Shown piece after piece: positions 1-63,858 of a stretch of DNA of 64,000 nucleotides. Positions within the stretch are counted from its first letter, which is position 1; every line of letters starts with the position of its first letter. The position numbers and the translations under genes are program-made. Source of the stretch: Bacteroidia bacterium (lineage in GTDB: Bacteria > Bacteroidota > Bacteroidia > Chitinophagales > JAUHXS01); the NCBI GenBank assembly GCA_030426955.1, contig JAUHXS010000001.1, positions 332,661 through 396,660 of the forward strand, in the 5' to 3' direction. Under the pieces are notes generated by a model. That model was given only the letters and a program-made list of their open reading frames with translations, made no database searches and was not told the DNA's origin.

Positions 1-1870
1 CATCTGAATTGTGGTACTCGTATCGCTTTGTACAATGAAGCAATTTTCTGATACCGTCATTATCAATTGTACACTATCGCCGTCTTTTAAGCTATCGGTT
101 ACATAATGTATGTTGGTCGCTCCTGTAATATTTACTCCGTTTAGCAACCATTGGTAGCTTGGGGTTAAACCACTATCTACTGCGGTAGAAAGACTAAACG
201 TTACGCTTGTGCCTTCACAGATCGTATCGTTTGGACTTACAGATATCACTACATTAGGATCTAATGGATTGATATTGTATATCGTCATGCTGTCTCTACT
301 CGTTGGACAGATGCCATTGCTAATACTCCACTCTAAGTCAATCGTGTCTGGAAACAACAGTCCATTAATCGTCGTTGTTGGTTGTGACGAGTCTACTAAA
401 TTGCCACTGCCACTCAATATCTGCCATAGGCCATTACCCACTAGTGGCGTGTTGCCATATAATACTAAATTTGTACCGTTGCATAATACCGTGTCCACTC
501 CTGCGCCTGCTATTGTTGGTAAACTATCTACTCTTACATTCACCGAATCAACACCGATACAGCCATTCGCATCAGTAACTTGAAGTTGGTATTCAGTAGT
601 AGTAGTCGGGAAAGCTAACGGATTAAAGATTGTATCATTGCTTAATGAATCTGATGGAGCCCACTGATAACTATAAGGAGATGTTCCTCCACTTGAACCA
701 AATAAACTTCCTATCAGAACTGTATCTCCAATACATAAGCTGTCATCAGCTCCGGCATCAGCAATTGGATTTGCATTTACAGTAATTTGGACACTATCCT
801 GAGCTGAACAGAGATATGTATCTACTACTGTAAAAATGTAGCTAGTGGTTGAAGTCGGCCATGCCATTGTGAAAAAGCAAGTATCACAGTCTAAACTATC
901 TGATGGCGTCCATTGAATACTATAAGGCATTGTTCCTCCAGCAACCGCAGCCAGTAAAGTTGTTGTATCTCCTAGGCATATTCCAGTATCATTAGTTAAT
1001 GACAAAGTTAAGCCAGGAAGAACAAGTATGTTGACCGTATCTGCATTGCTACACCCATTTGCATCGGTAATTGTGACAATATAATCAGTTGTATCTATAG
1101 GATAAGCCCAAGGGTTAGCTATTGTATCATTACTTAAAGAGTCTGTAGGCAACCATTGATAGCTGTAAGGCATTAATCCTGTTGATGCCGTTGAATTTAG
1201 TTGGATAGAATCTCCAGAACATATTGTGTCATCAACTCCTGCATTAGTATTAGGTCTATCATTTACAACAACATCAATAGTATCGATTGAAGCACAGCCA
1301 TTGCTATCCGCAACAGTGACTATGTAAGTTGTATCGAATAAAGCAACTACCCTTGGGTTTGCTACTGTATCCGCATCTACAAAGAATGTGTCTGGAGTCC
1401 ACTGGTAACTTAATATACCTATTGCAGAACTTCCTGTAGGAATGCCACCTAAGACAAGTGTATCTCCAATACAAATGCCAGTATCATTTCCAGCATCTAC
1501 CACAGGTGGTGTAGATGGTAATACTTCCGTCTGGTCAGTTGACATACATCCATTGGTATCGGTTACAGCTACTGTATAAAGACCAGGTGTATTTACCGTA
1601 ATGGTTTGAGTCGTGTCTGTAGTGCTCCAAAGAATAGAATCAAACCCAAGTCCAACATCAAGCATTACTGAATCCAAACCACAGGCATAAGCAGTATCTT
1701 GGAGCTGAGGCTCTACCCCGTCTACGACTCTGATTGTAGTTGTTAATATACTTCCACAATACCCTATCGTGTAATTGTACTGAATTGTATGTAATCCTGC
1801 TCCAGCAACTGCGGGGTCGAATACTCCGCTTGAGGACATACCTGGACCTGAGTAAGTCGCATTACAAACG
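1..1870 (-). other. Ig/PKD-like module array at the downstream end of the giant protein
   Basis: Translated on the minus strand this stretch begins with a TYSGPG…SSSGVFDP segment. It then has four modules of about 80 residues, each containing a P-Y-S-Y-Q-W-type strand, a C..DT…L stretch and a V.DANGC ending. The last visible module has YQWLLNGVNITGAT followed by SLKDGD, the same pattern as the Ig-like half-units of the 30040-39039 protein. Such modules usually act as spacers or ligand-binding stalks in Bacteroidota surface proteins. Confidence 0.7.
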
Positions 1871-4800
1871 TAAAATGGCGTTGATGTATCTGGATCATCT
1901 GTAGTACAGTAAATACTGTCTAGACCATTCCAAGGACTAACGTTCCAATCTACAAGCGAAACCCTTTTTATTTTGTTATTTCTAGTATCGGCAACATCTA
2001 TAAAACCTTTGATAAAAGCAGATACCGCTGTAGGATCATTGAATCTTGCATCTTCCGCAGAGCCAGTTACGTCTCCTGAAATACCTAAAGCACCAGCAAA
2101 GGTCGTCAAAGAATCTTCAGATAAATCAATTTTTCTTATTGCTTGATTTTGTTTATCTGCAACAAATACTTCACCATTACATGTAACACTAACCCCATTA
2201 GGTAACCAAAGACCTCCTTGGCCAGCGCCTTCAGACAAGGTGCCATCTGTAAAACCTGGAAATGGTGGATTACCAGCATAAAGTGTTATTGAATCTGTAG
2301 CATATTCATATCTGTAAATCGCATTTCTAAACTCGTCTGCAATATACAAGTAATCATTATCGCTTATAATGTGTCGCGGTCGATACAAGCGAGCATCCGA
2401 AGCAGCAATATTCACACCATATAAAGCTATATCCATACCTCCACCTCCTATAACATTTGTCACATTATAATCACCACTTAACAAGTCTATCCTTTTCACT
2501 CTTGGAATAGCACCAGCAAATCCCCCCTCTTGAGCCACATATAGAGCATCCAAAGATGGGCTAAAACATAAACCATAAGGAGCTGACAGTCTAGCTGAAA
2601 CACCCGGTCCCACAGAAGTTCCTGCACTACCATTTCCAACTACAGTAATAACAGAGTCATTCCTTAATAAACGAACAGTATGGTTATTAACATCTACAAA
2701 ATAAATCAACCCAGTAGGGTCTTTTACAATACCAAAAGGTTGATCCATTAAAGCCTTACTAGCAATTGGATCAAATGCATAACCATCTCGATAGCCAGAT
2801 GTACTACTATCTCCTGCTATTAGACTCGCATTACCAAATGTATCAACTTCTACTAACCAAGTAGGCTGTGTTGTATAAATTTGTCCATCACAATCTGTAA
2901 ACAAGCCTTGAGGATCTTTTATTGCTTTTTCTGTGCTATCATTTACGACATCATCTACACAAGGAGCGGGTAATATTGTTGTGGTATCAAATGTAGTATC
3001 GCAGATCACATGACCAATAATGTGCGTACCGATTCCTGCTTCTTCGGGATCGAAATACCATTTATTTAAGCCTACGCTAAATTTGATCCCTACTCCAAAG
3101 AATGTTCCTCCAGGGTTGACAGGATTTAAAATTTGAAGAAAGCTAGAAGTACAATAAGTACTATCAAGACCTGTAAAAGCAGAGCTTGATGAAGGAGTAA
3201 TGACAATATCTGTACCGTTATCTAAACCTGTAATAATTGGATCGCTAGATACAATTCTAATTCGATAACCATCTCCCGCTGGAATCGTATCTGGTACATC
3301 AATAAATCGACATTGCCCCACCGTATCTATAATTGTATCAATAACTGTTGGTGAAGAGAAGCTACCGTTGCTGTCTGATAGTTCAACTGAGAAAACATTA
3401 CCTAAATTAAATGTACCTGTCTTACTAAAACAAACATATAAATTTGTACCTGCACAAGTCGTATCTGGCGATACTGAGTCAATAGTAATAGTAGCACCTA
3501 CAAACTCAAATGCTCCCATATCAACTATTCCCCCAATGATACGGTCATTATTGTCTAAATCAGTAGAAATAGCGGCTACATAAGAATTATCTCCTGAGTT
3601 AACTGCTGGAGAAGTACTTGTGTCGATGGTATAATCATCATTAACAGCATCTGTAAAGAGTGGGTTTCCATTGACACTATTGGTCGTAACAACGCCAATG
3701 CTAATACTATCAAAAATGCTATGATCAGCAATAATTGCTCCTCCTCCATTTTCACGTGCATCCATTACTGAGTTGCCATGTAAAATAGTATTAAATGCAC
3801 TAATCTGTCCAGTGCCTGTAGTGACAATTCCTCCAGAGAGTGGAGCAGCGCCAAGTGACTGATTATCAGCAATTGTTGTATTTAATAGGTTGGTAACCTG
3901 CTCGTCGTCAAATATAACAGCTTCTATTAAGGCTATATTTTCATAGATTAAGCTATTAACCAAGTTAAACGTGTCTGAGCCAGTATTTCCTGAAGAGGCT
4001 AAAAACGCCCCACGATTAGACGTGTTATTATAAGCCCTTACTTTGCTAGCATAACCACTTCCTCTTATCCAAAGCCCTCCACCTAAAACATTTGCATTAT
4101 TATCATGTATTTCACTATTACTTATGGAGAAGAAATTTGCTAACTCAGCCAATTCGATACCACCACCGCTCGAACTAGCATTGTTAAAAGCAATATCTGA
4201 ACTGTCAATAACCAATGAATCACTAGCAAAGTAAATACCTCCAGCTGAGGTATTGGATATATTACCACCTTGAGCAGCATTGCCAATTATTGAATTCAAA
4301 ATTTTGATACTTCCTCCAGGTACGAAGCTATATATCCCTGCTCCAATATTAGCTTCATTATCAATCAGACTCACATCATCCAATCCTAGAAGAGACGAAT
4401 TATTTGCCTGATTTATACCTCCACCATTTATTCTGGCTATATTGCTATCTATTCTTACAGAAACCAATGTTGCATTCCCGCGTGCTAGGTATATTGCCCC
4501 TCCAGCATTAGCGGAATCACCCTCAAAGGAAACATCTTGAGCATATAATGTATCTCCATTGAAATATAATCCTCCTCCTTCAAATGACTTATTGCCTCCA
4601 AATTGAGCCCCAACATTTGTATTATTTATAAGGTAAAGGTCAGAGTTTAGTCCACTAAAAATACCCCCTCCAGCGTGATGCGCAAAATTATTTTCGATGG
4701 CAGTATTGCCTACCGTCATCCTACCAGCATTATATATTCCACCTCCAAAGCTATTAGCAGCACTATTAAATGTTCGATTTAACTCAATTGTATTTTGGCT

Positions 4801-7800
4801 TAATGAGGCACTTCCGTTATTAAAAATGGCACCTCCTCTTCTCGCTATTGACGCAAAATATGTAGATGATATAGATACGATGGTATTGTTGGAATCCACA
4901 AATACAGCACCTCCATTTCTTAACGAAGAATCCCTTTGAAAGAAAACACTTTGTAAAACTAGGTTACCACTTCCCGTAGCAGGCATACCGATACCACCTC
5001 CATGAAATGCCCTGTTGTCCCAAAATAATGTATTAGCAATAAGAGCAATACTATTGGTTTCTATGTACATACCTCCTCCAACACTGTCTGCCTTATTAAA
5101 ACTCACATCAGATCCTGGCGTAACAAATAAGCTGTCATTCACATCTGATGTCTGGAAGTATACTCCTCCTCCATCTCGAGCAGAACGATTTTGGTTGATG
5201 TTAGTTGAGTCTATAACAATATAAGAGTTTCGAGCAAAGATACCGCCTCCACTACCTGTCAATGCTATATTTTCTCTAATAGTTGAGTTAGAAAAGACTA
5301 TTTCTTCAGCACCTGAAACCCAAAGCCCTCCACCGCGATTTGCAGCATTTCCTTGCCCAAAGTCACCTAAATTAGTCTCATCAATCAATATACTAAAACT
5401 TCCACCTAGGTTATCCGCAAACACAGCGCCACCTCTAATGGATGCCTGATTTTGCACTAGGTTACTATTTTGTATAACTAAGATATTGGTATCTCCAACT
5501 AAAGCTACCATAGCAACTCCTCCTCCTTGTGTGGCTAAGTTACTATCTACAACCATACTATCTAGAGTAGTAATACCTCTAAACCCACTGATAGCTAGTG
5601 CACCTCCTGAACCACTTGGAGAGGCTGAAGCATTATATTTTCTTATTCTAATACTCTTAAATACATTGCCTGAAGTTTGTACAAGAAAGGCACTTTTATC
5701 ATTAGCCCCATAAGTTGTTCCGTCAAATATTGTGTTGTGTACTCCACCGCTGATCACTCCATAAAAAACGGCAACGTCTGATGTAATTGTAGTATTGGTA
5801 TCAGGATATGTACCAGCATCGATAAATATCGTATCATTATTTAACACATACTGATCCAGTACAAATTGAACTGTCCTACAAGGATTGCTTGGCGTACCAC
5901 AACCTACAGCATCAACACCTGTTGCGGAAGTCCATTTTTCATCTCCTCCTAATACATCATTGACATAATAATTAGGTCCAAGTGTTTCGGGCATTTTGAA
6001 ATAAGGCGCTGAAAACTTTGAGGTATTCCCAGCACTGTCTTGCAATGCAGTTAAGCTATCCAAACCATTAGTACCATATACTCCGTATCCGTTAATAACT
6101 TTACTCCAGTTTCCAGTAGCATCTGCTAAAGTAGTATCTAGGAACGCCTGCCCTTCATGTGCAGAGTCACAATATATTTGTATTAAAGCATTTGGCGAAG
6201 CAGTTCCTGAAACAATAGTATCTGTACCCACGACAGTAACGTTGTTAATTTTTGGTGGCAATATACCTTCTTGTGCACCTGGATTAAAATCAATTCCCAA
6301 TCCAACATTCTGTGCAATAGAGTTTCCATGTATTAAATTGTCTTTGCCAAGCATATAAATTCCTCCTAATGAGTTTCCTCCTCTTATATTATTGGCTTGC
6401 ATTGGGTCAAAACCACCAATCTGATTAGAGTCATTAAAGATCAATAATGAAGCAGACCCTGCTGAGAAAACTGTAATACCATCTAAGGCTAATCCTATAT
6501 TATTATTATATAAAATGTTATGCTTAGATACAGATGTGCTAATATTCTCTCCATTATTTCCAGCAATTACGTTGCCCCCACCTACAACTGCTAGCCCTAT
6601 CTGATTACTATCTGCATCGATTGAAATACCCTGAAATCCATTTCCAAGAGCTACATTTCCAGTAACATCCGTCCCAATAAAGTTTCCAGATATAATATTG
6701 TTATGACAATTAGCACTGATTATATGGCAACCTCTCTCTGTATTAGCAGACAACAAGTTTCCTTGCCCAGGTATTCCAATATTATTATTAGATGCGCCAT
6801 TGTCAATCCTTACACCATCCAAAGCATTTCCGCTATCTGCTAATCCACTGTAATCTGTCCCTAGATAGTTAGATATTATAGTATTATTTCTTGCATTTAC
6901 TGTATTGATTAAAATTCCGCTAGCCGAGAATCTATTAATTACTAGCCCCTTAATCGTATTTGTACTACTTAAAATTTCAAGACCATTTGTAATGGGTCCA
7001 ACATTTGCTCCGTACAGTTCGACATCTGGCCTATTATTGTTATTTAAGTCGCCGTTTATATATGTGCTATCATCGATCAGATCAGGTAAAGCTGACAAAA
7101 TTGTGATGGTATGTCCCCCCATAGCAATGGTATCAAATGTGATTGTATCAGCTCCAAAGTTATTATTGGCATACCCTATTGCTCTTCTCAAGGTTCCACA
7201 GGAGGAATCATCAGCAGCAGAAGTAACCAGTAAAGGATTATTACAAATGTCAATAAAGAATTCTAACGAGAAGTCTGAGGTATTTTCTAAACTATCTTGA
7301 AGTGCTCGAAGTGTATCAACATTGGCAGGCAAGCTTGATAGGTCAATCTGAATACTCCAATCTCCTGCTGCATCTGCTCTAGTTGTATCTACAAAAATTT
7401 GCCCTTCAAAAGTAGAATCTGCATAAATCTGAATAAAAGCGTTTGGAGATGAAGTTCCAGAAAGAGTGCTGTCTGCAGAAAGGTTATTAATAATTGGCGG
7501 TTTTATATTTTCCTGTACTCCAGCTACCTGAAACCATATCGCACGATTAATGCCGTTGTCCCAGAACCTATTTTGATGCATCATATTTTTGGATGAAGCA
7601 GCAGATGGATATCTTATACCCGAGCCTTCATGATGTGCAATAACGTTATAGTTAATAATATTAGAGGACGACTGAATATTAATTCCATTCCCGCCTCCAA
7701 TAGTACCCATATCTATGGTTTCTGAAGTATCTGTACCTACGTAGTTGCCTCTAATAATGTTACTATCTCCAATTATTTCAATACCTTTTTGTCTTCCAAC

Positions 7801-10800
7801 AATTACATTATATTGATTTAATGAAGTATCTCCGATAATATTACCACTACTAGTTCCTGCTATACGTACGGCGACATTTACCAGGTCATTGATTGCGTTA
7901 ATCGGTCCGCTTAACGTAATATTCGTACCAATATAGTTTCCTATGACGATATTTCCCGATGAATTATTAAGTCGTATTTCACTTCCAAAACCTCCTCCCG
8001 TAGTGGCTCCTGCTATTAAGTTTCTTCCAACAAGAGTTCCATCGCCAATAAAGTTGCTATTTGCATCATTAATAGAAATTCCCAAGTGGCCTCTTCCTGA
8101 ATCAACCATACCAGAATAGTCGGTATTGATATAGTTTCCAACAATTCTATTTCGAATACTCCCTGCCCCTGCAATCTCTAAAGCAACCGAGTCAAATTGA
8201 TTTATGACGAGTCCTCTTATCTCATTATAAGAAGACTGAATACGGAGTCCTATTTCACTATTATTTAAACTCCCTCCCCAAATTTCTACATCTGGCTTTC
8301 CGTCCATACTTAGGTCGCCATTGATAACTGTAGAGTCATCAAATATGAGTGGCAACTGTCCATTTACAATAGCAATAGTATGTCCGCCCATAGCAACGGT
8401 ATCAAAAGTGATGGTATCGGCTCCTGGATTAGCATTGGCATATCCGATAGCATATCTCAAGGTTCCACAGGTGGAGTCATCAGCCGTAGAGGTAACTAAT
8501 AAAGGTTGCCCGATGCTGATATCTTGTCCATTATCGATTCCTATAAAGTTTGGATTTAGACTAATTGCTCGGACTCTATACCCTGTACCTGAGAGCATAC
8601 TAGGAATATTCACGCTAAATGTATCAGGCACATTAGGAAAACCAGTAATGGTATCTAAATTTGTCGGAGAAGCAAAGCTACCTGCGTTATCTGATATCTG
8701 AAAAATAAGTTCACTTGCGGCATTGTATGTATTCACAGCTACTACCACAGCCTCTAGATTGTCACCCTGGCAGTATAATAAACCTGAGAGCATTGTATCA
8801 ATATAAAGTGTATCTGCGAAAAATGCCTCGTATGCTCCTATATCCCAAATTCCTTTTTGAGGTCTTGCACTATCTACAATATCAACAATAGGCGCATTTA
8901 AACTTATTCCTCCATTATATGCTGGAGATAACGGATTAGCAATGCTAAAATCATTATTCATTGAGTCAACAAATATTGGATAGCTTGTTGAGCTATTAAA
9001 AATAGTTGCACCATTACTCATATTGTATATGGAATGATCAACTGTTATATTTCCACCCAGCACGTCAAAGTCAAAAGTTTCATTATTATAAACGATACTA
9101 TTAATAATATCTACTTTGGCAAATGTTTCTGTTACAACACCTCCTGAACTTGAGTTCGTAGAATAGTTGTCGATAATTGTAGAATTAACTATTTCAATGC
9201 CAGAACTACCAATTCCTTTAATTGCTCCATCGTCTCCAGCAATATTGTCATATACTAAGCAATTCTCAAGATAAACTGAGTCTGTAGCACCCAAAAACAC
9301 AACAGAGCCATCGTCTGGAGCTATATTATCAAAAAACTGTGATTGAAATACTTTTACAATGCCTCCAATTTTCATGGCTCCACCATCAGCAGCAGCATGA
9401 TTGTACACATAGTTGCTATCAAAAATACACTTTGTTATAATTGCTAGACCATCAGAAATTCTGACACCTGCGCCTCCATCATTTGGAGAAGAGGCTCTTA
9501 CCCTATTACGACTTATCGTAGAAGCTGTTAGTTTTAATGTATCTCCATCAAAGAAGAACACTCCTCCTCCTCCATTTGTTGAAATATTGCCATCTATATT
9601 GGTTGTATTTAAATTTGCATTTCCAACATGAACATAGATACCTCCTCCAAGCTGACCAGCAGAGTCTATATTTATATTACTATTTTGAATATTTAACTCA
9701 TTTCCAGCAAAATAGATACCTCCTCCATCGAGAGAAGCAACATTAGATGTAATTGCGCTGTTATTGGTTATAGTCAAACTATCTCCATTAAAATAGATTC
9801 CCCCTCCATTTCTAGCCCTATTCTTCTTGCCCGTAACACCGATTAAGGTATTATTCGTCATTAGTATATTTGCTCCTGTTGCTGCATACAAAGCACCTCC
9901 ATTTTCTTTAGCAAAGGAACTATCAATAACAGTTCCTCTCATTATCATTGGATTATTAGAAGATGTATATATACCGCCTCCATTATTATTTAGCGCAGCG
10001 TTCTGCTCAATAGCACATATGCTTATATCAACGTACCCATTCTCAATGTAAAGTGCACCACCATTGCTATCTGCTATATTTCCGCTTACAATAGCTGTAT
10101 CTAAACTTAGCGTATCTCCATCAAAATAAACTCCTGCACCGTTGTTTGCAGTATTAGCTAATGCTAGATTACCTATGGCCGAAAGGCCAGATATATACAA
10201 ACTAGCAGAACCACCGTTGTTAGCTACATATACTCCTCCTCCATTTCCTGTAGCATCATTTAACCCAATATCCGTATTATCGATATATACTCGTTGTGCG
10301 TTTTGACCATCAATATAAATACCTGCGCCGTCTAATGCAGCAGTATTGAGCCCTATATTAGACCTATTCTGGATTGTCGTACTATTTTCTGCCAAACTGT
10401 AAACCGCTCCTCCATTAGAAGCCTCATTACTTATAAAATAAGAGGTTCTTACTGTTAGATCATCCCCATCAAAGTAGATGCCTCCTCCATTTTGATTGGC
10501 ATAATTCCCCAAAGCCCCTATTCCTACTCTAGTAGAATCAGATATTAAGAGAACGGTATTATTGGTAGCATATATGGCACCACCATGACCCATTGCAGAG
10601 TCTCTTCTGAATGTTGTTTTACTGATAGTGGCATAATTATCATTTATATAGACGGCACCACCATTATCACTAGTTGTGTTTTTACTAAAAAGGGAATTGT
10701 TAATAATCAGTGTATCTCCCTCAAAGTAGATACCTCCTCCTCCTGAAACAGATTCATTACCATTAAGTGTCCCTATTTTTGAGTTTTCAACTTTAAGATT

Positions 10801-13800
10801 TGAAAATCCTCCGCGATCAAATGACCGTATTGCTCCTCCACGACCATTTGCATAATTACCATCTAATTTTGAATTTGACAAGTATAACGTAGCATCTGTA
10901 TTGGGTTTATTTTCAAACATAATACCTCCTGCACCTTGTGCTAAGTTATCAACAATTACAACTTCGTCGATAATACAATTGCCTTGAGCATTTTTTATTT
11001 TTACTCCTCCTCCTGCTGGTTCTGAAGCAATACCTCTAGAATCATAATTTTTTATCGTTACTTTTTGAAGATTTATCAATGTACTATCAAACCTAAATGC
11101 ACGAATCATATTCGTTCCTAGAATAGAGCCATCAAAAACTGTAAGAGACGAATCTGCACCTATAAACACTGCAGTATCGTCGTAATTGACCATAATATTT
11201 GCATCTGGGTATGATCCTGCATCGATGAATATGGTATCTCCTCCTAAAATATTATTATCTAAAACGTATTGCACTGTTCTACATGGATTTGATGGGCAAC
11301 CACAACCTGGCTCATCTATTCCAATATTTGTTGTAAACATGTCATTTGTACTTGATCCGTCATTTACGTAATAATTATTTGTATTGGCAATCGTAAGATC
11401 ATAGCCATTATCAGTGCTGGTTGCGGAAGGGACGGAAGACTGTATTCTTATTCGGTATGTGATGCCTGGAACTTGGGCAATTGGAATGACAACATTAATA
11501 AAACTATCCACATCAGACACAATCATACCAATTGTATCGGGTGAAGTAAAGCTTCCTCCTGCATCAGATAATTCAGCATAAAAAGTATCAAAAGGTATTG
11601 GTGGCCATTCTATTCCTGTAGAAGAGAAATATACCCGAAATGATTGTCCTTGGCAAAATACGGTGTCTTGCTTTTCTAAACTATCTACATCAAAGGTATA
11701 ACCAGGGCCATACATTGGTATGACTTGTTCCTGACGTCCTGTACTATTACCATCATATATGCTATAAATCGTATTCGATGATATATCAGCAATTGTAAAT
11801 GAGTCAACAGCCCAAGAACCCGATGCATTATTATTTCTATTGCCTAATCTAATCGAGGCTTCATTAACAGCACCATTAAGTTTTGGATTAGTCGTATAGT
11901 CCAGTTCATGTTTAATTAAACTGGTGTGATTACCAACTCGATAAGTTCCCCAATAGCCTGATAGCTCAAAACTATCAACTCCTGTGGGCAATACAATATT
12001 ATTAGGTGTATCTGACACAAAATATAGGTGCACACTGTCTGCTAACCCTGTTGGGAAAGCTTGTAAATTCATTTGTCCACTCGATGGGCTCAACATTGAT
12101 AGCATAGGAACTCCTGCATATGCAAACACACTTGTATCCCCTATTGGAGCAATCGAAAGTTGCCTGTCTGTATTCTCCGCATTTCGATAAAACCCATCCT
12201 TTCCTGTTACCAAATCTTCTAGAGTATCAATCAACCCGTCATCAAAACGCCAATAGGCTAAAAGCCTTGATTCAGCTGGATGATTATTGAGTGTTTTGTT
12301 ACACATATATTTTCGGATAATTGATTCTGGCATCAAAGTATCCCAAATTCTTACTTCATCAATATACCCATCAAAGTATTCACCCATCAATCTATTGGTT
12401 CCGATAAAAAGGCTATCACCAACAGTAAGGTCTTGTCCTATAACTGGGTCGGCAACGGTAACCTCAACAACCCCGTCCACGTAGAGTCTTGCAGTATTTA
12501 TAGACCGATCAACAGATAAAACAAGATGATGCGGCTGTTGGTCATCTATAATTGTGGAAGTAGAAATCACAGCAGTATTAAGCCCACCAAGTCCATCTCC
12601 TATTTCTGCTCCAAACGTATTGGTATTGACGACCAATTGGAATCCTTTCATATCATCAATGTTCAATATTTGATTTGCTTTTGACAACAAGCCAGTTACA
12701 GGGGTTTGAGGATCGTCAATTTTCACCCACATTTCAACGGTAAAATCTCTTGTAGTACCAAAATCCAAGCTAGCATCTGGAACAACAGCTACGTATTCAT
12801 CATTAGAACCTCCAGAATTAAATCGTGTTGCATAGCCTGAACCTGGTTCATCAGGATACGTTGAATTTGCGTATCCTAACACATACTCTGTTCCGTACTG
12901 ATAACCCGAAGAGATTGTATTGTTGTCGGTATTCGTTCTTAGCTGGCCTGATGCTCTTTTCCATGTATTATCAGCACCATTCTGCCTTTTCAACAACCTT
13001 ACTCGATCCTCATTGCCAGAACCATTTAATGGTGTACCCGTATAGTTATAGGTGGGCCTATAACCTGCATTGGCGTCTCCTACTTTAAAGACACCAACAT
13101 AACCTCCTTGATCGTATGAGCTTATCCCAGATGGTAATTGGTCGATTAATATACTATCATTCACCTCATATATATGCATGCCATCAATTGCGCCAGTGAA
13201 GTCTCCTAAACTAAGTACTCCCCCATTATCAAAAGTATAATTAACTGGTGAACCTCCATATAAATAGACAGAGGTATCTCCAAGAGCTGCACCTGAAGTC
13301 ACCCAGTCTGTTGCTGGATTCATGGCGTTTAATACTCCATGATTAGCATTCCCTGAATAGTCTGTCAAGGTTGTTCCAGTGGTGTCATCAAAACGATAGT
13401 ATGCAACTAGGTCGGAATATTTAGGATGCTTGTCAGTAACTTTCCGACACATCCAATTTCTAATTTCTGCAGTTGTCAACTCGCTCTCCCAAATACGCAC
13501 CTCGTCAATTTGGCCAGGAAAGTTTGACGTACCAAATTCTCTTGAGCCTATCGTAAGGTCTCCCGATGGGAATGCTGGAGTATTATTATTAGTTGCCCTA
13601 AGCTGTCCATCTACATAAATCTCCCAAGTACCTCCAGCTATTCTTCTAGTTGCAGCGAAATGTGTCCATTTATTTGGAGTTGGGATATATGCTGTTGAGG
13701 CACTTGTACCGTTACCTAGCCTAAAAAGTAATTGATTAGCAGCATTCATAAAAAAGCCATAGCCATTATTTGTGCTATGCCCATTCATCATAATATAGCG

Positions 13801-16800
13801 CACCGTTCCCGATCCAGTCCCATTCCATTTAAACCAAGCCTCTATCGTAACATCAATTAAACTAGTTGTTACAGTAGAACCAACATTCACATAGTCATCA
13901 TTTCCATCAAAATCCAATGCTTCTCCTGCTCCAGTTAATTCCAAAGGAGTTGAGAAATTTGATTCATAGGCACCTAAGTCAAAACCATTGCCTTTAGGAC
14001 GTATTGTATCGTTGATATCTACTGCTGGTGCTCCTGTAGCAGTTCCTACATCTATAGCAGGAGAGGCTTCTTGCAGAGTGTAATCATTTGTAACCGAACT
14101 ATTGAAAAGAGGATCTTGACCTGTTATGTTATTTCCATTATCTGTAAAGTCAGTCCCAGCAGATGCATTATCATATAATGAATATGAAACGTTTATCGCA
14201 CCATTTAATTGGCTAAAATCTCTTCCTGTATTGCCATAAAATATACTATTCTGAACATTGATAACATTACCAGTATTGTTAGAATATATTGCAGCATTAC
14301 TCGTATTTGAAACATTATCTGCAAAAGTACAGTTTGAAATACTTCCACTTCCTGAGTTATAATAGATTATACCTTGTGTTTCTGCAGTATCCTTATATAG
14401 CAGACAGTTTTCTAAAGTTACTGTTGCACTAGCATTATCAACCATAATAGCAGAACCATCGTCTTCTGCATAATTTTCATAAAATATCGTTTTAGAAATG
14501 TGTGCCTCCGTTGTATATGCTAATATTGCACCCCCATCGGCAGTATTACTTCCGTTATCAGTATAGTTATGGTGAATATCACACTCATCTATAATAACTG
14601 TTGAGCCTCCTGAAAACATAAAGGCTCCTCCTCCTTGACTGGCCATTGAGCTGTTGCCTGCTATTTCAGAATGATTAATCACTAATGAGTCCCCTATAAA
14701 ATGGATCGCTCCTCCCTGATTTGTCACACGATTGCCTTCACTTTGTGTACCTAATATTGAATTACTGATAATGATGTCTGATGAAGTCATCCCTCTTATT
14801 GCCGCTCCATTTGTGCTTGCATTATTTATAAACACTACGCTATCTGCTTCTAACCTAGCATCAGATGATAAATAAACGGCACCTCTTGTATTGTTGTCTA
14901 TAGTGATCCCATTAAGATATCCTCTACTACCTAATCCTCCCAAAAACAATGCTCCGCCACTATTTACTGAAATATTGTTTAAGAAATTTCCTCCTGAGAA
15001 TGTTCCTGTAGCGCCATTTGCTAGACATACTCCTGCGCCACTATTACTTACCTTATTTGCTTCAAATTGAGTGTTAATAGTTGTTATAGATTCGCTTGTA
15101 CCATCACCATATATTGCCCCTCCAGTACCTGACGTATCTCCCTTAAAGCTTGAATTTTCAATATATAAAAAGTCGCCAAACTGGTATATGCCTCCTCCAC
15201 CCGTATTTGCTAGGTTGCTATCAATATTACTATTTAGAATAATGGTAGGATCATTAGCATAGATACCCCCACCACGACTACCTGCATGGTTATTGCTAAT
15301 CCTAGAGTTGTTTATAAATACAGAATCAGAAACTGTATTGTAGTATATGCCTCCGCCATTAAGTGTACAATAATTGTTACTAATCTCAGAAGAGTCTATA
15401 AACAATAAATTGCAACTATTCACATATATCCCACCACCACTTCTAGAGGCTCCAGTAACACTATCGCCTGCGATTAAGGTTTTAGAAATCATCAAGGTGT
15501 CTCCATCAAAGTAAATGCCCCCTCCATGTCTTACCGACTTATTTCCATTTGATTTTTCTCCAATGATACCATTTTTAATGTTTGCATTATTGGTAGATCC
15601 GAAGTAAATTGCGCCACCCTCACCATTAACACCACTTGCCTCATTAGAGATAAATGTGTCGTTAGATGACAAATAGGTTACATTTGCAATATCAGGCATA
15701 TGTAGCCCTCCTCCATCACCGGTTGACTCATTATTATCAAATTTATTTCCAATTGATACTAATGTGTCTCCATCAAAGAAAACTGCTCCACCATTTACTC
15801 CTTTACACCTTTCAAAAGCACAATTAAGAAGGGTAAGTTCATCTGTTGTATTGGCATTAAAAAGAATAGCTGCGCCACTTGAGGCAAAGCCTGAAATATC
15901 ATAGTTTTTAACAGTAATATCACTAATTGTCATATTATGGCTACCTACATTGATCTGCATCCATCTGCCAATTACGCCATAGCTTGCACCATCGAAAGTT
16001 GTTGTATTTTTGCCAGCGCCCAATATTGTTACACCTTCATCATTTGCTGTCATAATTCCTTCATCCGTATAATCGCCAGCATCTACAAAAATGGTGTCCT
16101 TAAAAGTAAGATCATTATTGTCTAAAACATACTTCAAGCTACGACAAGGATGCCCTGGTTCTCCGCAACCTGGAACATCTGAGCCCACTATTGTGGTATA
16201 AATGTCTCCAGCTTGACTATTATCATTTACATAAAAGCCATTAGATGATTCGTATGCTCCAATGGTAGGAGGATCATTTCTTTCCTCTCCATTTATGTCT
16301 TCCTCAATGCTTAAGATGCTAAAACCTGCTTCAACAACAGGAGAGCCTTTTTCAAGATCTAAATTATTTCCAGTAGGGTCCAAAAATCGAGGATCTACTT
16401 CTAATGAATTTTCATCGCCATTATTTATGCCTTCTTCTGAGTGGTCTATAGTTGACCAAGTAGTGACATCTGGGTAATTCGCTCCATCAAATTGAACCAC
16501 TTCACCTCCAGGATTCCAAAAAACGTTATAATCACAGAAGTCAAACTTACTTGAACCAGTAATCTCTAAACAAAACTGCCCCCCACCTCCAGTTGTCTGA
16601 AAAATATTATTTCTAACATCCCATCCTAAGTTTGCTCCGCTGCTTCCGAAGTCAACACATGCTTCCATAGTGTAGAAGCTATTAAACTGTAGTGTATTGT
16701 CATTGGATACTCCTGCTCCTACTGCTATCCCCTTAACATTTTCACTGAAATAATTGTTAAATATTTCTGTATTTGTTGCACCGCCTGGCATATTCATGCG

Positions 16801-19431
16801 CAATCCTCTCCACCCCCTTATAAATCTAGACTTGCTAATTTCAGCAGAATCGACTTTAGTCAGGTCAAGCCCAATACTATTGCCTCCTGCAAAAGACAAA
16901 TCAAAAGTACACGATTCAACCTTGAGAAACCTTGCACGATTTGACATATCGTCTCCAGAAAAAGAAATGGCAGTAGGACTGGATGGACCGCTTAAAGAGA
17001 ATGTACATTGTGAAAAATATAAGTTATTTGAATTATTTCCCCCGATATTTTCAATTCGGATCATGTCTAAGTTTGCAGCGCTAAAAAAGCTACAATCTGA
17101 AAATGAGATATCTTCTGATTGAGCAATTCTAATTAAAGAAAGAGCTGCACCAACATTTTCAAACCTAATATTGGATATTTCATAACCCGAGGTATTGAAC
17201 ATATCCAATCCAACTCCAGATGCTTCTCTCCAGTTAGTAACTCCAGGGCCTGCTCCAATAATAACGACTGGAAAAGATTTTGATCCTGCATCTGCTATAG
17301 AAATATTTACATTTTCAACATAAGAACCCGCATCTATATATATGGTATCATTTTCATTGATATCATAATTATCAAAAATATCCTGAATTGATGTTATTGG
17401 GTCTGAGGGACTCATGCCAAAGTTGGTTCCATATGGTGCTCCAATAGCCGTAGTAAAAGTATCACCTGGAGTATTAAGATCGTTTACATAATATTTTCTG
17501 CTCGGAGGATTCGCTTCATGAGCACCCATCCAAAAACCCAAACGAGGTTTACCATCAACATCGTCAGTAATTACAGGAGAAAGATTTGCTGCGTTATCGT
17601 ACAATTCTGCGGGGGTCGTAACTGTCAGATAAAGCAAAGAATCATATTGATAGACTGGATCGAAAGATACAGAGCTTGCATCTTTTCCTGTAGCGGGCTT
17701 CCAAAGGGTTAAAGTCGGGTAATCTACTCCATCATAATGTCCTAAATTTGCAGAATTAGAAAAGTGATCATTATTATCTAAAACATTAACGGTAGTAGCA
17801 TTGTTTATAAATATGGCATATCCTCCTGTACCCTTATTATAAAATATGTTATTTTGAATGTTAATATTGTTACCAGAAGTAGGATAAGAAAACGCAGCTG
17901 CGTTAGGATGATTACTATTCGTAAGCACACTATTATTGTAAACATTTATATAGTCTGACCCAGCAATAAAGAGCGTTCTTGACTCAGCAGATGAGTTATG
18001 AATTGAAGCAAAGTTGTTAGCAATCAAACCCATTTGCCCAAGAGAGCCACTTCCTGAAGTAAAACTAATTGCAGAATGACCAGTATTAATTGATACTTTA
18101 TTATTTCTTGCTTCAAAATCGTAAGAGCATCGATCACAATAAATACCTCTATAACTTATAGTTGCATTGTCAGCAACAACTTGATTTTGAGTTATTTTAA
18201 TGGCAGTATGGTCTCCTAACTCCATCGCTCGATGTCTCTGGTTTCCAAAATAGCAACCATTAATTATTGTACCTAATGCATCAGCGGTCATTGTAGGGTT
18301 TCTAAAGTCTATTCCTATTGCTCCATTCAAGAAGTCACAATATTGAAATTCAATACTATCCTGGGTAAAACTGTCAACAGCAAAAACTAAAGCTCTATTA
18401 TCACCTGTAGAAGAAGTATTAAATGCTTCTATTGAACAGTCAGAAAACTTAATCTTTTTTGCAACTCCTTCCAATACAACTACCCTGCTGTAACCGAAAG
18501 GCTCTCCTAATGCTTTGAGGGTAAGTGCTTCGAAATCTACATATGGAGTTTCTATAATATCTACCACATAGTTACTGTCAGCTACGCTCGCTTGATACTG
18601 AACTACAACATCTTTTCTATCGTTTGTTGCAGAGCTAAAACTGATTGTTTTAGAAGGACTTGTTCCTACAATATTATCGAGTACAAATTGCTCATTATAA
18701 GTACCTGTAGCTACTTCAAAATTCACCTTACAGGCAACTCCAGGACCATTTGTTGGGCCACCATCAGACCTTGTTCCATAACTAAGATCTTCTGCTGCTG
18801 CAGAGAAAGTTCTATAATTGGTTGCACTTGCTGCTTGACTCCCATCAATCGTGTATTCTCCGAGCAAGCCACTTCCACCTGAATAATATACTGTAATTAA
18901 TATATGGTCTATATTTGCAGTTTGAAACCCGAACGTACCATTCTCCACACGGATGGCCACCCCAAAATCTGGTGAATTAACAATAGCAGACGTCAATGAA
19001 ACGCCCCAAGTACCATGACCACTGTAAGCAACATAGGCATCTGTAGACGGCCAAGGGGTAAGAGTTTTTGCATGATTACTCCCTGTTGGAGGCCCCGCAT
19101 CTTTGAGCAACTGCACGTCCGCATCTCTTATGTCAGTTCCTGCTGACTTTTCCATTACAACTACTACACTATCAATAGTGGCTCCATTAGGAATACAAAA
19201 TCCAAAATCTGTTACATAAAGCCAATAAGAAGACTGAAGAAATAAAGAGACATTTGCATGTAAATCATCACTTAAACCTATATTGAATGGTGTACTCCAT
19301 GCAACTCCTCCAGTTGCTACATTTGCCCCTGAACCAGCTGAATTAGGCCCTTGACTTTGTTGCGCACCAGCAATTCTTACTATAAAAAGCAGACAAACTA
19401 AAACCAGTAAGAATCTATATATTCTATGCAT
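1..19431 (-). CDS. Giant secreted multidomain beta-helix protein, C-terminus beyond window
   Basis: The frame opens at ATG 19431 and I find no stop in the parts I translated; it is still open at base 1, so at least 6477 codons lie here and the 3' end is missing. Residues 1-23 form a signal peptide (MHRIYRFLLVLVCLLFIVRIAGA). An N-terminal beta-sandwich-like domain follows (about 25-190), then right-handed beta-helix blocks (about 245-1050), a GGGIYF/GGAIY-rich Pmp-like helix (1065-1800), two LamG-like domains (about 1825-2035 and 2200-2400), another Pmp-like helix (2690-3510), two beta-helix modules opening with CGTLR.AI.YAN (3640-4475), a further Pmp-like helix ending in the choice-of-anchor style NPLF…D.GAFEF (4480-5310), NHL repeats (about 5480-5835) and Ig/PKD-like modules (5855-6477). 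Likely a surface or released adhesin-like T9SS cargo; a type B sorting domain is expected just outside the window but not seen. No catalytic residues are recognisable. Confidence 0.9.
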   Translation of the reverse strand, partial: MHRIYRFLLVLVCLLFIVRIAGAQQSQGPNSAGSGANVATGGVAWSTPFNIGLSDDLHANVSLFLQSSYWLYVTDFGFCIPNGATIDSVVVVMEKSAGTDIRDADVQLLKDAGPPTGSNHAKTLTPWPSTDAYVAYSGHGTWGVSLTSAIVNSPDFGVAIRVENGTFGFQTANIDHILITVYYSGGSGLLGEYTIDGSQAASATNYRTFSAAAEDLSYGTRSDGGPTNGPGVACKVNFEVATGTYNEQFVLDNIVGTSPSKTISFSSATNDRKDVVVQYQASVADSNYVVDIIETPYVDFEALTLKALGEPFGYSRVVVLEGVAKKIKFSDCSIEAFNTSSTGDNRALVFAVDSFTQDSIEFQYCDFLNGAIGIDFRNPTMTADALGTIINGCYFGNQRHRAMELGDHTAIKITQNQVVADNATISYRGIYCDRCSYDFEARNNKVSINTGHSAISFTSGSGSLGQMGLIANNFASIHNSSAESRTLFIAGSDYINVYNNSVLTNSNHPNAAAFSYPTSGNNINIQNNIFYNKGTGGYAIFINNATTVNVLDNNDHFSNSANLGHYDGVDYPTLTLWKPATGKDASSVSFDPVYQYDSLLYLTVTTPAELYDNAANLSPVITDDVDGKPRLGFWMGAHEANPPSRKYYVNDLNTPGDTFTTAIGAPYGTNFGMSPSDPITSIQDIFDNYDINENDTIYIDAGSYVENVNISIADAGSKSFPVVIIGAGPGVTNWREASGVGLDMFNTSGYEISNIRFENVGAALSLIRIAQSEDISFSDCSFFSAANLDMIRIENIGGNNSNNLYFSQCTFSLSGPSSPTAISFSGDDMSNRARFLKVESCTFDLSFAGGNSIGLDLTKVDSAEISKSRFIRGWRGLRMNMPGGATNTEIFNNYFSENVKGIAVGAGVSNDNTLQFNSFYTMEACVDFGSSGANLGWDVRNNIFQTTGGGGQFCLEITGSSKFDFCDYNVFWNPGGEVVQFDGANYPDVTTWSTIDHSEEGINNGDENSLEVDPRFLDPTGNNLDLEKGSPVVEAGFSILSIEEDINGEERNDPPTIGAYESSNGFYVNDNSQAGDIYTTIVGSDVPGCGEPGHPCRSLKYVLDNNDLTFKDTIFVDAGDYTDEGIMTANDEGVTILGAGKNTTTFDGASYGVIGRWMQINVGSHNMTISDITVKNYDISGFASSGAAILFNANTTDELTLLNCAFERCKGVNGGAVFFDGDTLVSIGNKFDNNESTGDGGGLHMPDIANVTYLSSNDTFISNEASGVNGEGGAIYFGSTNNANIKNGIIGEKSNGNKSVRHGGGIYFDGDTLMISKTLIAGDSVTGASRSGGGIYVNSCNLLFIDSSEISNNYCTLNGGGIYYNTVSDSVFINNSRISNNHAGSRGGGIYANDPTIILNSNIDSNLANTGGGGIYQFGDFLYIENSSFKGDTSGTGGAIYGDGTSESITTINTQFEANKVSNSGAGVCLANGATGTFSGGNFLNNISVNSGGALFLGGLGSRGYLNGITIDNNTRGAVYLSSDARLEADSVVFINNASTNGAAIRGMTSSDIIISNSILGTQSEGNRVTNQGGAIHFIGDSLVINHSEIAGNSSMASQGGGAFMFSGGSTVIIDECDIHHNYTDNGSNTADGGAILAYTTEAHISKTIFYENYAEDDGSAIMVDNASATVTLENCLLYKDTAETQGIIYYNSGSGSISNCTFADNVSNTSNAAIYSNNTGNVINVQNSIFYGNTGRDFSQLNGAINVSYSLYDNASAGTDFTDNGNNITGQDPLFNSSVTNDYTLQEASPAIDVGTATGAPAVDINDTIRPKGNGFDLGAYESNFSTPLELTGAGEALDFDGNDDYVNVGSTVTTSLIDVTIEAWFKWNGTGSGTVRYIMMNGHSTNNGYGFFMNAANQLLFRLGNGTSASTAYIPTPNKWTHFAATRRIAGGTWEIYVDGQLRATNNNTPAFPSGDLTIGSREFGTSNFPGQIDEVRIWESELTTAEIRNWMCRKVTDKHPKYSDLVAYYRFDDTTGTTLTDYSGNANHGVLNAMNPATDWVTSGAALGDTSVYLYGGSPVNYTFDNGGVLSLGDFTGAIDGMHIYEVNDSILIDQLPSGISSYDQGGYVGVFKVGDANAGYRPTYNYTGTPLNGSGNEDRVRLLKRQNGADNTWKRASGQLRTNTDNNTISSGYQYGTEYVLGYANSTYPDEPGSGYATRFNSGGSNDEYVAVVPDASLDFGTTRDFTVEMWVKIDDPQTPVTGLLSKANQILNIDDMKGFQLVVNTNTFGAEIGDGLGGLNTAVISTSTIIDDQQPHHLVLSVDRSINTARLYVDGVVEVTVADPVIGQDLTVGDSLFIGTNRLMGEYFDGYIDEVRIWDTLMPESIIRKYMCNKTLNNHPAESRLLAYWRFDDGLIDTLEDLVTGKDGFYRNAENTDRQLSIAPIGDTSVFAYAGVPMLSMLSPSSGQMNLQAFPTGLADSVHLYFVSDTPNNIVLPTGVDSFELSGYWGTYRVGNHTSLIKHELDYTTNPKLNGAVNEASIRLGNRNNNASGSWAVDSFTIADISSNTIYSIYDGNSTGRQEQVIPMYGPGYTFDVDSLEKQDTVFCQGQSFRVYFSSTGIEWPPIPFDTFYAELSDAGGSFTSPDTIGMIVSDVDSFINVVIPIAQVPGITYRIRIQSSVPSATSTDNGYDLTIANTNNYYVNDGSSTNDMFTTNIGIDEPGCGCPSNPCRTVQYVLDNNILGGDTIFIDAGSYPDANIMVNYDDTAVFIGADSSLTVFDGSILGTNMIRAFRFDSTLINLQKVTIKNYDSRGIASEPAGGGVKIKNAQGNCIIDEVVIVDNLAQGAGGIMFENKPNTDATLYLSNSKLDGNYANGRGGAIRSFDRGGFSNLKVENSKIGTLNGNESVSGGGGIYFEGDTLIINNSLFSKNTTSDNGGAVYINDNYATISKTTFRRDSAMGHGGAIYATNNTVLLISDSTRVGIGALGNYANQNGGGIYFDGDDLTVRTSYFISNEASNGGAVYSLAENSTTIQNRSNIGLNTAALDGAGIYIDGQNAQRVYIDNTDIGLNDATGNGGGVYVANNGGSASLYISGLSAIGNLALANTANNGAGVYFDGDTLSLDTAIVSGNIADSNGGALYIENGYVDISICAIEQNAALNNNGGGIYTSSNNPMIMRGTVIDSSFAKENGGALYAATGANILMTNNTLIGVTGKKNRARNGGGIYFNGDSLTITNNSAITSNVASLDGGGIYFAGNELNIQNSNINIDSAGQLGGGIYVHVGNANLNTTNIDGNISTNGGGGVFFFDGDTLKLTASTISRNRVRASSPNDGGAGVRISDGLAIITKCIFDSNYVYNHAAADGGAMKIGGIVKVFQSQFFDNIAPDDGSVVFLGATDSVYLENCLVYDNIAGDDGAIKGIGSSGIEIVNSTIIDNYSTNSSSGGVVTETFAKVDIINSIVYNNETFDFDVLGGNITVDHSIYNMSNGATIFNSSTSYPIFVDSMNNDFSIANPLSPAYNGGISLNAPIVDIVDSARPQKGIWDIGAYEAFFADTLYIDTMLSGLLYCQGDNLEAVVVAVNTYNAASELIFQISDNAGSFASPTNLDTITGFPNVPDTFSVNIPSMLSGTGYRVRAISLNPNFIGIDNGQDISIGQPLLVTSTADDSTCGTLRYAIGYANANPGADTITFDTVAMGGHTIAIVNGQLPLIFDDSTVINGDLSMDGKPDVEIWGGSLNNSEIGLRIQSSYNEIRGLVINQFDSVALEIAGAGSIRNRIVGNYINTDYSGMVDSGRGHLGISINDANSNFIGDGTLVGRNLIAGATTGGGFGSEIRLNNSSGNIVIGNYIGTNITLSGPINAINDLVNVAVRIAGTSSGNIIGDTSLNQYNVIVGRQKGIEIIGDSNIIRGNYVGTDTSETIDMGTIGGGNGINIQSSSNIINYNVIAHHEGSGIRYPSAASSKNMMHQNRFWDNGINRAIWFQVAGVQENIKPPIINNLSADSTLSGTSSPNAFIQIYADSTFEGQIFVDTTRADAAGDWSIQIDLSSLPANVDTLRALQDSLENTSDFSLEFFIDICNNPLLVTSAADDSSCGTLRRAIGYANNNFGADTITFDTIAMGGHTITILSALPDLIDDSTYINGDLNNNNRPDVELYGANVGPITNGLEILSSTNTIKGLVINRFSASGILINTVNARNNTIISNYLGTDYSGLADSGNALDGVRIDNGASNNNIGIPGQGNLLSANTERGCHIISANCHNNIISGNFIGTDVTGNVALGNGFQGISIDADSNQIGLAVVGGGNVIAGNNGENISTSVSKHNILYNNNIGLALDGITVFSAGSASLLIFNDSNQIGGFDPMQANNIRGGNSLGGIYMLGKDNLIHGNSIAQNVGLGIDFNPGAQEGILPPKINNVTVVGTDTIVSGTASPNALIQIYCDSAHEGQAFLDTTLADATGNWSKVINGYGVYGTNGLDSLTALQDSAGNTSKFSAPYFKMPETLGPNYYVNDVLGGDEKWTSATGVDAVGCGTPSNPCRTVQFVLDQYVLNNDTIFIDAGTYPDTNTTITSDVAVFYGVISGGVHNTIFDGTTYGANDKSAFLVQTSGNVFKSIRIRKYNASASPSGSGGALAISGFRGITTLDSMVVDSNLATQGGGVAMVALVGDTNILVIQNSNLVQNQASIRGGAVFADNLGGSFSILIDETNLGDFGQGNAANRGGGLWVSGAEEIVFSNSTIRENIALTGSGGGIFARNSYIVIDSTNINQNRSARDGGGVYFQTSDVNDSLFVTPGSDVSFNKADSVGGGMYIETNSIALIANTLFWDNRAFHGGGIGMPATGSGNLVLQSVFFQRDSSLRNGGAVFVDSNNTIVSISSTYFASIARRGGAIFNNGSASLSQNTIELNRTFNSAANSFGGGIYNAGRMTVGNTAIENNFAHHAGGGIFSGLNSDLYLINNTNVGAQFGGNKSFEGGGLYFNGDTLYAQDVSFEGDSANAGGAIYLARGNATLVSVRIDSNIARINGGGINQANNSSLLGLDDVSLIDNEANIGAGIYSFVPGGSIKILNSIIGNAAQGGNISNTSAGGIYFASDSLVIDSSDIAFNNASSSGGGIELAELANFFSISNSEIHDNNANVLGGGLWIRGSGYASKVRAYNNTSNRGAFLASSGNTGSDTFNLVNSLIYENIALIEAVIFDDEQVTNLLNTTIADNQSLGAAPLSGGIVTTGTGQISAFNTILHGNSVMDARENGGGAIIADHSIFDSISIGVVTTNSVNGNPLFTDAVNDDYTIDTSTSPAVNSGDNSYVAAISTDLDNNDRIIGGIVDMGAFEFVGATITIDSVSPDTTCAGTNLYVCFSKTGTFNLGNVFSVELSDSNGSFSSPTVIDTIIDTVGQCRFIDVPDTIPAGDGYRIRIVSSDPIITGLDNGTDIVITPSSSSAFTGLDSTYCTSSFLQILNPVNPGGTFFGVGIKFSVGLNKWYFDPEEAGIGTHIIGHVICDTTFDTTTILPAPCVDDVVNDSTEKAIKDPQGLFTDCDGQIYTTQPTWLVEVDTFGNASLIAGDSSTSGYRDGYAFDPIASKALMDQPFGIVKDPTGLIYFVDVNNHTVRLLRNDSVITVVGNGSAGTSVGPGVSARLSAPYGLCFSPSLDALYVAQEGGFAGAIPRVKRIDLLSGDYNVTNVIGGGGMDIALYGVNIAASDARLYRPRHIISDNDYLYIADEFRNAIYRYEYATDSITLYAGNPPFPGFTDGTLSEGAGQGGLWLPNGVSVTCNGEVFVADKQNQAIRKIDLSEDSLTTFAGALGISGDVTGSAEDARFNDPTAVSAFIKGFIDVADTRNNKIKRVSLVDWNVSPWNGLDSIYCTTDDPDTSTPFYVCNATYSGPGMSSSGVFDPAVAGAGLHTIQYNYTIGYCGSILTTTIRVVDGVEPQLQDTAYACGLDSVMLDVGLGFDSILWSTTDTTQTITVNTPGLYTVAVTDTNGCMSTDQTEVLPSTPPVVDAGNDTGICIGDTLVLGGIPTGSSAIGILSYQWTPDTFFVDADTVANPRVVALFDTTYIVTVADSNGCASIDTIDVVVNDRPNTNAGVDDTICSGDSIQLNSTASTGLMPYSYQWLPTDSLSNDTIANPWAYPIDTTDYIVTITDANGCSNADTVNILVLPGLTLSLTNDTGICLGDTTTLLAAVAGGTMPYSIQWTPSDSLDCDTCFFTMAWPTSTTSYIFTVVDTYLCSAQDSVQITVNANPIADAGADDSLCIGDTVLIGSLFGSSGGTSPYSYQWAPSDSLSNDTIFNPLAFPTTTTEYQLQVTDANGCIGVDSVNVRVDSLPTIAGAGVDTVLCNGTNLVLYGNTPLVGNGLWQILSGSGNLVDSSQPTTTINGLLFPDTIDLEWSISNGICPTSRDSMTIYNINPLDPNVVISVSPNDTICEGTSVTFSLSTAVDSGLTPSYQWLLNGVNITGATNIHYVTDSLKDGDSVQLIMTVSENCFIVQSDTSTTIQM
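1921..3000 (-). other. NHL-repeat block inside the giant protein
   Basis: The translation shows repeated strings of the form NGV.V…GEVFVADK.NQAIRKI, FAGALGISGD…A.F.DPTAV and QPFGIVKDPTG.IYFVDVNNHTVR. These are the hallmark of NHL six-bladed propellers. The block lies between the last beta-helix and the Ig-like array. Confidence 0.75.
3200..5995 (-). other. Pmp-like beta-helix F of the giant protein
   Basis: The block starts with the opener CG.PSNPCRTVQFVLD…DTIFIDAG.YPD near 5980-5740. It continues with many short turns ending in GGG(I/V/L)(Y/W/F) or GGA(V/I)(F/Y), the pattern of polymorphic-membrane-protein-like beta helices. It closes with NPLFTDAVNDDYTI…D.GAFEF and a beta-sandwich-like domain around 3510-3200 (DTTCAGTNLYVCFS…). 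Confidence 0.75.
6010..8520 (-). repeat. Tandem pair of beta-helix modules with CSLREA-like start motifs
   Basis: Two modules are arranged head to tail. Each starts with VTS(S/T)ADDS(S/T)CGTLR(R/Y)AIGYAN, then ADTITFDT.AMGGHTI and an INGDL segment (about 8500-8260 and 7240-6990). Each is followed by repeats of the N-N-I-I-G-N-x-I-G-T-D type. The start motif resembles the CSLREA family (C-S-L-R-E-A-I..AN), with GT replacing S and R/Y replacing E. The pair looks like an internal duplication. Confidence 0.7.
8880..11365 (-). other. Pmp-like beta-helix D of the giant protein
   Basis: The opener CGCPSNPCRTVQYVLDNN…GDTIFIDAGSYPD lies near 11310-11210. About twenty turns of the GGGIYFDGD / GGAVY type follow, down to about 8880. 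The organisation matches the block at 3500-5995, and the two openers are nearly the same, so these blocks probably arose by duplication. Confidence 0.7.
12240..13990 (-). other. Two LamG-like (concanavalin A fold) domains of the giant protein
   Basis: The first domain (13960-13330) reads LDFDGNDDYVNVG…IEAWFKWNG…IYVDGQLRAT…LTIGSREFG…GQIDEVRIWE…TEIR-type sequence and ends with LVAYYRFDD. The second (about 12850-12240) reads FTVEMWVKIDD…ARLYVDGVVEV…LFIGTNR…GYIDEVRIWD and ends with LLAYWRFDD. This is the standard LamG_3 layout. The folds usually bind carbohydrate or protein ligands. Confidence 0.8.
14010..16240 (-). other. Pmp-like beta-helix C of the giant protein
   Basis: The opener CGEPGHPCRSLKYVLDNNDL…DTIFVDAGDYTD lies near 16170-16060. 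Turns of GGGIYFDGDTL, GGAIYFG and related type follow, down to about 14010, where a closing D.GAYESNF segment leads into the first LamG domain. Confidence 0.7.
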
Positions 19432-63673: not shown

Positions 63674-63858
63674 CTTAATGTCATTTCTAACCCTTTCACT
63701 AATTGTCATAATTCAGCAATTATCATTAGTTACAATTTACAACATAATAAACCATAGTCACAAGACATGAAATACCAGTTGATTACAAGTCAAACACTAC
63801 GGAGATAAAAGGGGCGATAATGATTAATCTTACTAGTCAATAAATGTACTCTTGCATA

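Follow-up and report, generated by a model that had tools for sequence, protein, structure and literature searches.

Experiments in other species have shown that a type B protein binds the PorP-like barrel cognate to it (PMC9143113) and that a cognate shuttle is required for type B substrates (PMC12618676); according to published work, carriers collect their own type B substrates and remain bound (PMC9143113, PMC12618676, PMC12635249). In Flavobacterium johnsoniae, the home of the SprB/SprF pair, both gliding and the disulfide bond between SprF and GldK depend on a Cys-X-Cys motif in the SprF tail, and in the sprF C324A variant a single tail Cys still gives some SprF-GldK bond (PMC12635249). 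In Porphyromonas gingivalis, a PorE-PorP-PG1035 complex forms (PMC9143113), and Gorasia et al. (PMC9143113) postulated that type B proteins with a PorE-partnered carrier are non-mobile. A giant type B protein of 16,944 aa (TIGR04131) was reported from Kordia antarctica (PMC7477175).

Here we analyzed a window of 64,000 nucleotides (C5:332661-396660; C5 denotes positions on contig 5 of the genome) in which the gene of a 7930-aa protein, hereafter the giant, begins. Sequence analysis established its extent, sorting domain, gene order and duplication history. Like SprB, the giant is a very large, repeat-rich protein of presumed surface location with a T9SS type B domain and a neighbouring PorP/SprF gene, from which system it differs by the beta-helices, LamG and NHL blocks on its putative outside, by the one-Cys tail of its carrier, and by the PorE-like gene that comes after. 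The same three roles as in PorE-PorP-PG1035 (type B protein, PorP barrel, and PorE-like periplasmic tether) appear to be filled, whereas here the type B protein is a giant surface protein, the three genes lie side by side, and the putative tether has a SPOR-like instead of an OmpA-like end. The Kordia protein is likewise a repeat protein with a signal peptide and a type B domain, but it is a homogeneous Calx-beta array twice as long, while the giant is multi-domain. Despite its size, the giant is an ordinary representative of an established kind of surface adhesin, and a SPOR-like domain replacing OmpA on the PorE-like protein would be a mild oddity. A size record was considered and rejected, as larger type B giants have been published (e.g., the 16,944 aa of Kordia antarctica, PMC7477175). 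In an RpoB tree, the organism grouped with a genome of the same order (81% identity), near two Chitinophagaceae sequences.

Extent and domain layout of the giant

The minus-strand frame at window positions 1..19431 has an ATG start and 6477 codons without a stop, and is still open at base 1. The C5 sequence left of the window joins it exactly, and the joined frame reaches its stop at C5:328299, 4.4 kb beyond the window, resulting in 7930 aa (calculated ~834 kDa, pI ~4.1), of which residues 1-6477 are encoded in the window and the remaining 1453 to the left of it. A chance frame is impossible, given 23.8 kb without a stop at ~38% GC, and the single long frame claimed in the original prediction from the 19.4 kb open in the window was thus borne out. 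An in-frame stop, or a missing sorting domain together with a lack of Bacteroidota homologs, had been named there as observations that would count against the proposal; the left flank, once read, ended the frame in a type B sorting domain. The N-terminus (MHRIYRFLLVLVCLLFIVRIAGAQQ; residues 1-23, 19363..19431) resembles a Sec signal peptide by eye, in line with the signal peptide proposed for the start of the frame. An assembly artefact fusing separate genes is unlikely in view of the one open frame, the sensible domain order and the terminal sorting domain; mis-assembly might still affect how many of the near-identical Ig repeats are counted.

All domains described below lie on the minus strand. 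The signal peptide is followed by an N-terminal domain (residues 24-185; 18877..19362), by inference a probable beta-sandwich, then by a probable plain beta-helix A (residues 186-645; 17497..18876), proposed from the sequence pattern, and a probable beta-helix B (residues 646-1050; 16282..17496), whose opener YYVND...DTIYIDAG matched the opener profile. Next come the Pmp-like beta-helix H1 (residues 1062-1830; 13942..16248), with an opener and a choice-of-anchor Q cap, recognized by profiles, AlphaFold2 and structure comparison, and two LamG domains, the first at residues 1842-1990 (13462..13908; Pfam PF13385, E 8e-46, in two stretches) and the second at residues ~2193-2370 (12322..12855; the second PF13385 stretch, PF02210, and a partial NF052521 match). 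The Pmp-like beta-helix H2 (residues 2683-3550; 8782..11385; opener and repeats, clade with H3) precedes two tandem 'LLVTSAADDS.CGTLR.AIGYAN' modules (residues 3632-4040 and 4048-4478; 5998..8538), delimited by their mutual identity, and the Pmp-like beta-helix H3 (residues 4486-5310; 3502..5976; opener, repeats and clade), again with a choice-of-anchor Q cap. An NHL beta-propeller region (residues 5557-5770; 2122..2763; PF01436 E 2.5e-11, TEN_NHL E 7.9e-10) leads to the first part of an Ig/PKD array (residues 5830-6477; 1..1944; domain matches and repeat comparison), which has a unit of ~84 residues and extends left of the window to ~residue 7750. The families matched in the giant were LamG (twice), Beta_helix, choice-of-anchor Q caps, NHL, PKD and Ig_7, with a Big_6 Ig matched at the end of the tandem 'CSLREA-like' module pair; the SprB repeat PF13573 gave one match below cut-off (E 0.0015). 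The predicted domain order was therefore recovered for the two LamG domains, the Pmp-like helices, the tandem modules, NHL and Ig/PKD, while for the N-terminal sandwich and the two 'plain' helices the Pfam search returned no family and a single-sequence model of residues 20-660 was poor (pLDDT 34.5), so that these labels stay unproven.

Helix openers and duplication within the gene

The opener predicted to be common to the three Pmp-like helices was located in all of them, at residue 1089 in H1 (CGEPGHPCRSLKYVLD; window ~16167), residue 2710 in H2 (CGCPSNPCRTVQYVLD; window ~11304) and residue 4511 in H3 (CGTPSNPCRTVQFVLD; window ~5901), and the related DTIYIDAG string expected in a fourth helix was found at residue 695 (window ~17349) in beta-helix B. 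When placed among 32 outside relatives, the H1, H2 and H3 openers formed one clade (98/92), with H2 and H3 as sisters (99/91). Genome-wide, all matches of the opener profile fell within the giant's gene. As the three openers form one clade and are absent elsewhere in the genome, the three helices were duplicated inside the gene, and the low identities to H1 (39% for H2 and 30% for H3) make these duplications old. The opener of beta-helix B fell outside this clade, which makes the fourth helix a more distant relative and not a fourth copy; its profile match (E 9e-38) involves a profile whose building set included that opener. A test for conservation of coil order from helix to helix gave z values of 1.2 to 3.4, a suggestive result that is confounded by a long last piece.

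When 40 same-order genomes were searched, the profile gave four weak matches (E 7e-5 to 7e-4), strong ones being confined to the giant. Bacteroidota relatives of the opener, whose existence had been put forward as a check on the proposal, were found. The same CG..PC-R opener also occurs in multi-opener giants of other phyla, among them Lindowbacteria and Planctomycetota, often several times per protein and up to nine; no type B domain was detected in those frames, a negative that carries no weight as many frames are incomplete and the profile was built from two sequences.

In a tiled BLAST comparison of the giant with itself, the two tandem modules shared 54% identity over a 155-column alignment (3632-3779 vs. 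4048-4201) and 61% over 95 columns; their DNA identity was 81% over 131 nt. In the Ig array, two stretches lying 525 residues apart (~6300-6690 vs. 6825-7213), mostly left of the window, are copies of each other at 84-98% DNA identity, with additional copies at 65-91%, which indicates a young event. No tandem array was reported by TRF on the window, a result compatible with these duplications since TRF considers periods of up to 500 bases and copies that have diverged remain below its threshold. Block duplication, as originally claimed, is hence upheld for the three Pmp-like helices by the opener clade and for the Ig array by DNA identity, but not for the fourth helix. The giant offers a clean example of very large Bacteroidota surface proteins growing via within-gene duplication of whole domain blocks.

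Sorting domain, carrier and PorE-like gene

The last ~85 residues of the giant (C5:328305-328559) constitute the type B sorting domain that had been predicted past base 1, with scores above the cut-offs of both TIGR04131 and CHU_C (44.2 bits vs. 35 and 57.6 vs. 27, respectively). A PorP/SprF carrier gene (C5:327256-328296; TIGR03519, 179 bits) begins 2 bp after the stop of the giant; its product matched no solved structure by sequence. Such pairing is the rule in this genome, as 11 of its 14 PorP/SprF genes, the giant's carrier included, are located directly downstream of a same-strand type B domain (10/13 when only the others are counted), and one of the three remaining genes sits just before gldK. 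Sorting-domain matches in the genome numbered at least 136 for type A (PF18962) and at least 150 for type B (TIGR04131), with some places matching both; with at least ~125 type B domains over cut-off in 3.4 Mb, adjacency to a PorP/SprF gene by chance should be rare.

Directly after the carrier gene, C5:325141-327255 encodes a PorE-like protein of 704 residues with TPR and PD40 matches as well as NF052230 and NF053607 over residues 55-471, which scored 168 bits against the NCBIfam PorE cut-off of 600. No OmpA match was obtained where PorE has its OmpA-like peptidoglycan-binding C-terminus, and the C-terminal part resembled SPOR below the Pfam cut-off (E 0.0064). One of the genome's PorE-like paralogues (contig 22, position 35803) has a SPOR end above cut-off, which lends some support to this assignment. 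In same-order genomes the best matches to the PorE-like protein end near residue 472, short of the SPOR-like part, and a text search of partial literature returned no paper on a SPOR-ended PorE. SPOR domains bind denuded glycan strands; if the type B anchoring chain exists here in a modified form, with SPOR in place of OmpA on the PorE-like tether, the adhesin might be directed to division or wall-remodelling sites, a scenario that we rate as unlikely.

Probable stationary anchoring and its alternatives

The giant is probably a modular T9SS type B surface adhesin, held by its PorP/SprF and PorE-like partners as a stationary stalk. For its export, anchoring, stationarity and binding partners, we infer from the sequence that the Sec machinery would carry it into the periplasm, the T9SS translocon would move it across the outer membrane via the type B C-terminal domain, the adjacent PorP/SprF barrel would collect it and stay attached, and the PorE-like TPR/propeller protein with the SPOR-like end would link this barrel to peptidoglycan. 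In the stalk, ~20 Ig/PKD domains would lie next to the cell, with the NHL, beta-helix and LamG blocks outermost, where these blocks may recognize glycans or proteins, whether on another cell or on some surface.

A mobile, SprB-type gliding adhesin, with the SprF-like barrel pulled along a GldJ/K/N track, would share the type B domain and the adjacent PorP/SprF, and the genome contains a GldK homolog over cut-off that keeps its internal cysteines, as well as a GldJ-like gene, the latter, however, below its family cut-off. The tail of the giant's carrier ends in NPCPRL, with one Cys, fourth from the end, in contrast to the Cys-X-Cys needed in F. johnsoniae, although a single tail Cys can still yield some SprF-GldK bond (PMC12635249). 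None of the 14 carriers in the genome has a Cys-X-Cys tail: a fourth-last Cys is present in six (the giant's carrier included), a seventh-last in two, and the other six lack one close to the terminus. The single fourth-last Cys was also seen in carriers from two Chitinophagaceae genomes. In addition, a PorE-like gene stands behind the carrier here, while sprB-sprF is without one (PMC9143113). The single tail Cys and the following PorE-like gene make a stationary protein the probable case and gliding an unlikely one; together, carrier tail Cys and PorE-like neighbour allow one to predict, in a testable way, whether a given type B adhesin glides or remains in place. As separate observations, three of the closest PorE-like paralogues come after carriers with a fourth-last Cys, and contig 22 (27691-44253) harbours a cluster in which two type B giants of 1972 and 1961 aa, encoded next to each other, are accompanied by one PorP/SprF gene and by three genes for PorE-like proteins, one of them SPOR-ended.

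The fold of the helices bears on a second alternative, surface polysaccharide processing, in which the helices would act as lyase- or epimerase-like enzymes and LamG and Ig domains would serve for binding and spacing. H1 was folded by AlphaFold2 with H2 and H3 serving as alignment, and the model was a beta-helix (pLDDT mostly 60-93 for residues 110-700, pTM 0.71), a fold also matched by sequence profile (PF13229, E 1e-23). H1 is thereby predicted to be a right-handed, Pmp-like beta-helix; the H1-type helices have what we take to be GGAI-type coils like those of chlamydial Pmps. The model aligned with many polysaccharide-active beta-helices, the best Foldseek rows being PL6 alginate lyases and the AlgE/AlgG epimerases reaching Z ~26, but the top two alignments in the structure comparison were Vag8 (Z 31.4) and pertactin (Z 27.2), autotransporter passengers that resemble H1 in fold and are non-enzymatic surface proteins. 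Identities to solved structures were ~8-17% throughout, so that the fold tells little of function, and the sequence search of the giant gave no lyase or epimerase family; an enzymatic role is accordingly improbable. Secretion followed by release, e.g., as an extracellular matrix component, is more improbable still: some T9SS substrates, chiefly type A, are released (PMC12635249), but a type B protein that has its cognate carrier remains bound to it (PMC9143113, PMC12618676) and the carrier and PorE-like genes directly adjoin the giant, so that the surface-anchored half of the original 'T9SS surface or released adhesin' is favoured.

Further loci of the window include a second giant of 2999 aa (30040-39039, plus strand) with a GTG start, a type A sorting domain at its end (E 2.7e-10) and ~11 repeats of ~265 residues with motifs such as DFAIYL...IYESG, for which no Pfam family exceeded its cut-off. 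An amino acid dehydrogenase is encoded at 47898-49001 (plus strand; 403 bits for tryptophan dehydrogenase ScyB, family cut-off 600). An ELWxxDGT repeat protein with nine repeats and a type A sorting domain lies at 60011-61999 (minus strand), and type B sorting domains were identified at 52169-54301 and 62021-63709.
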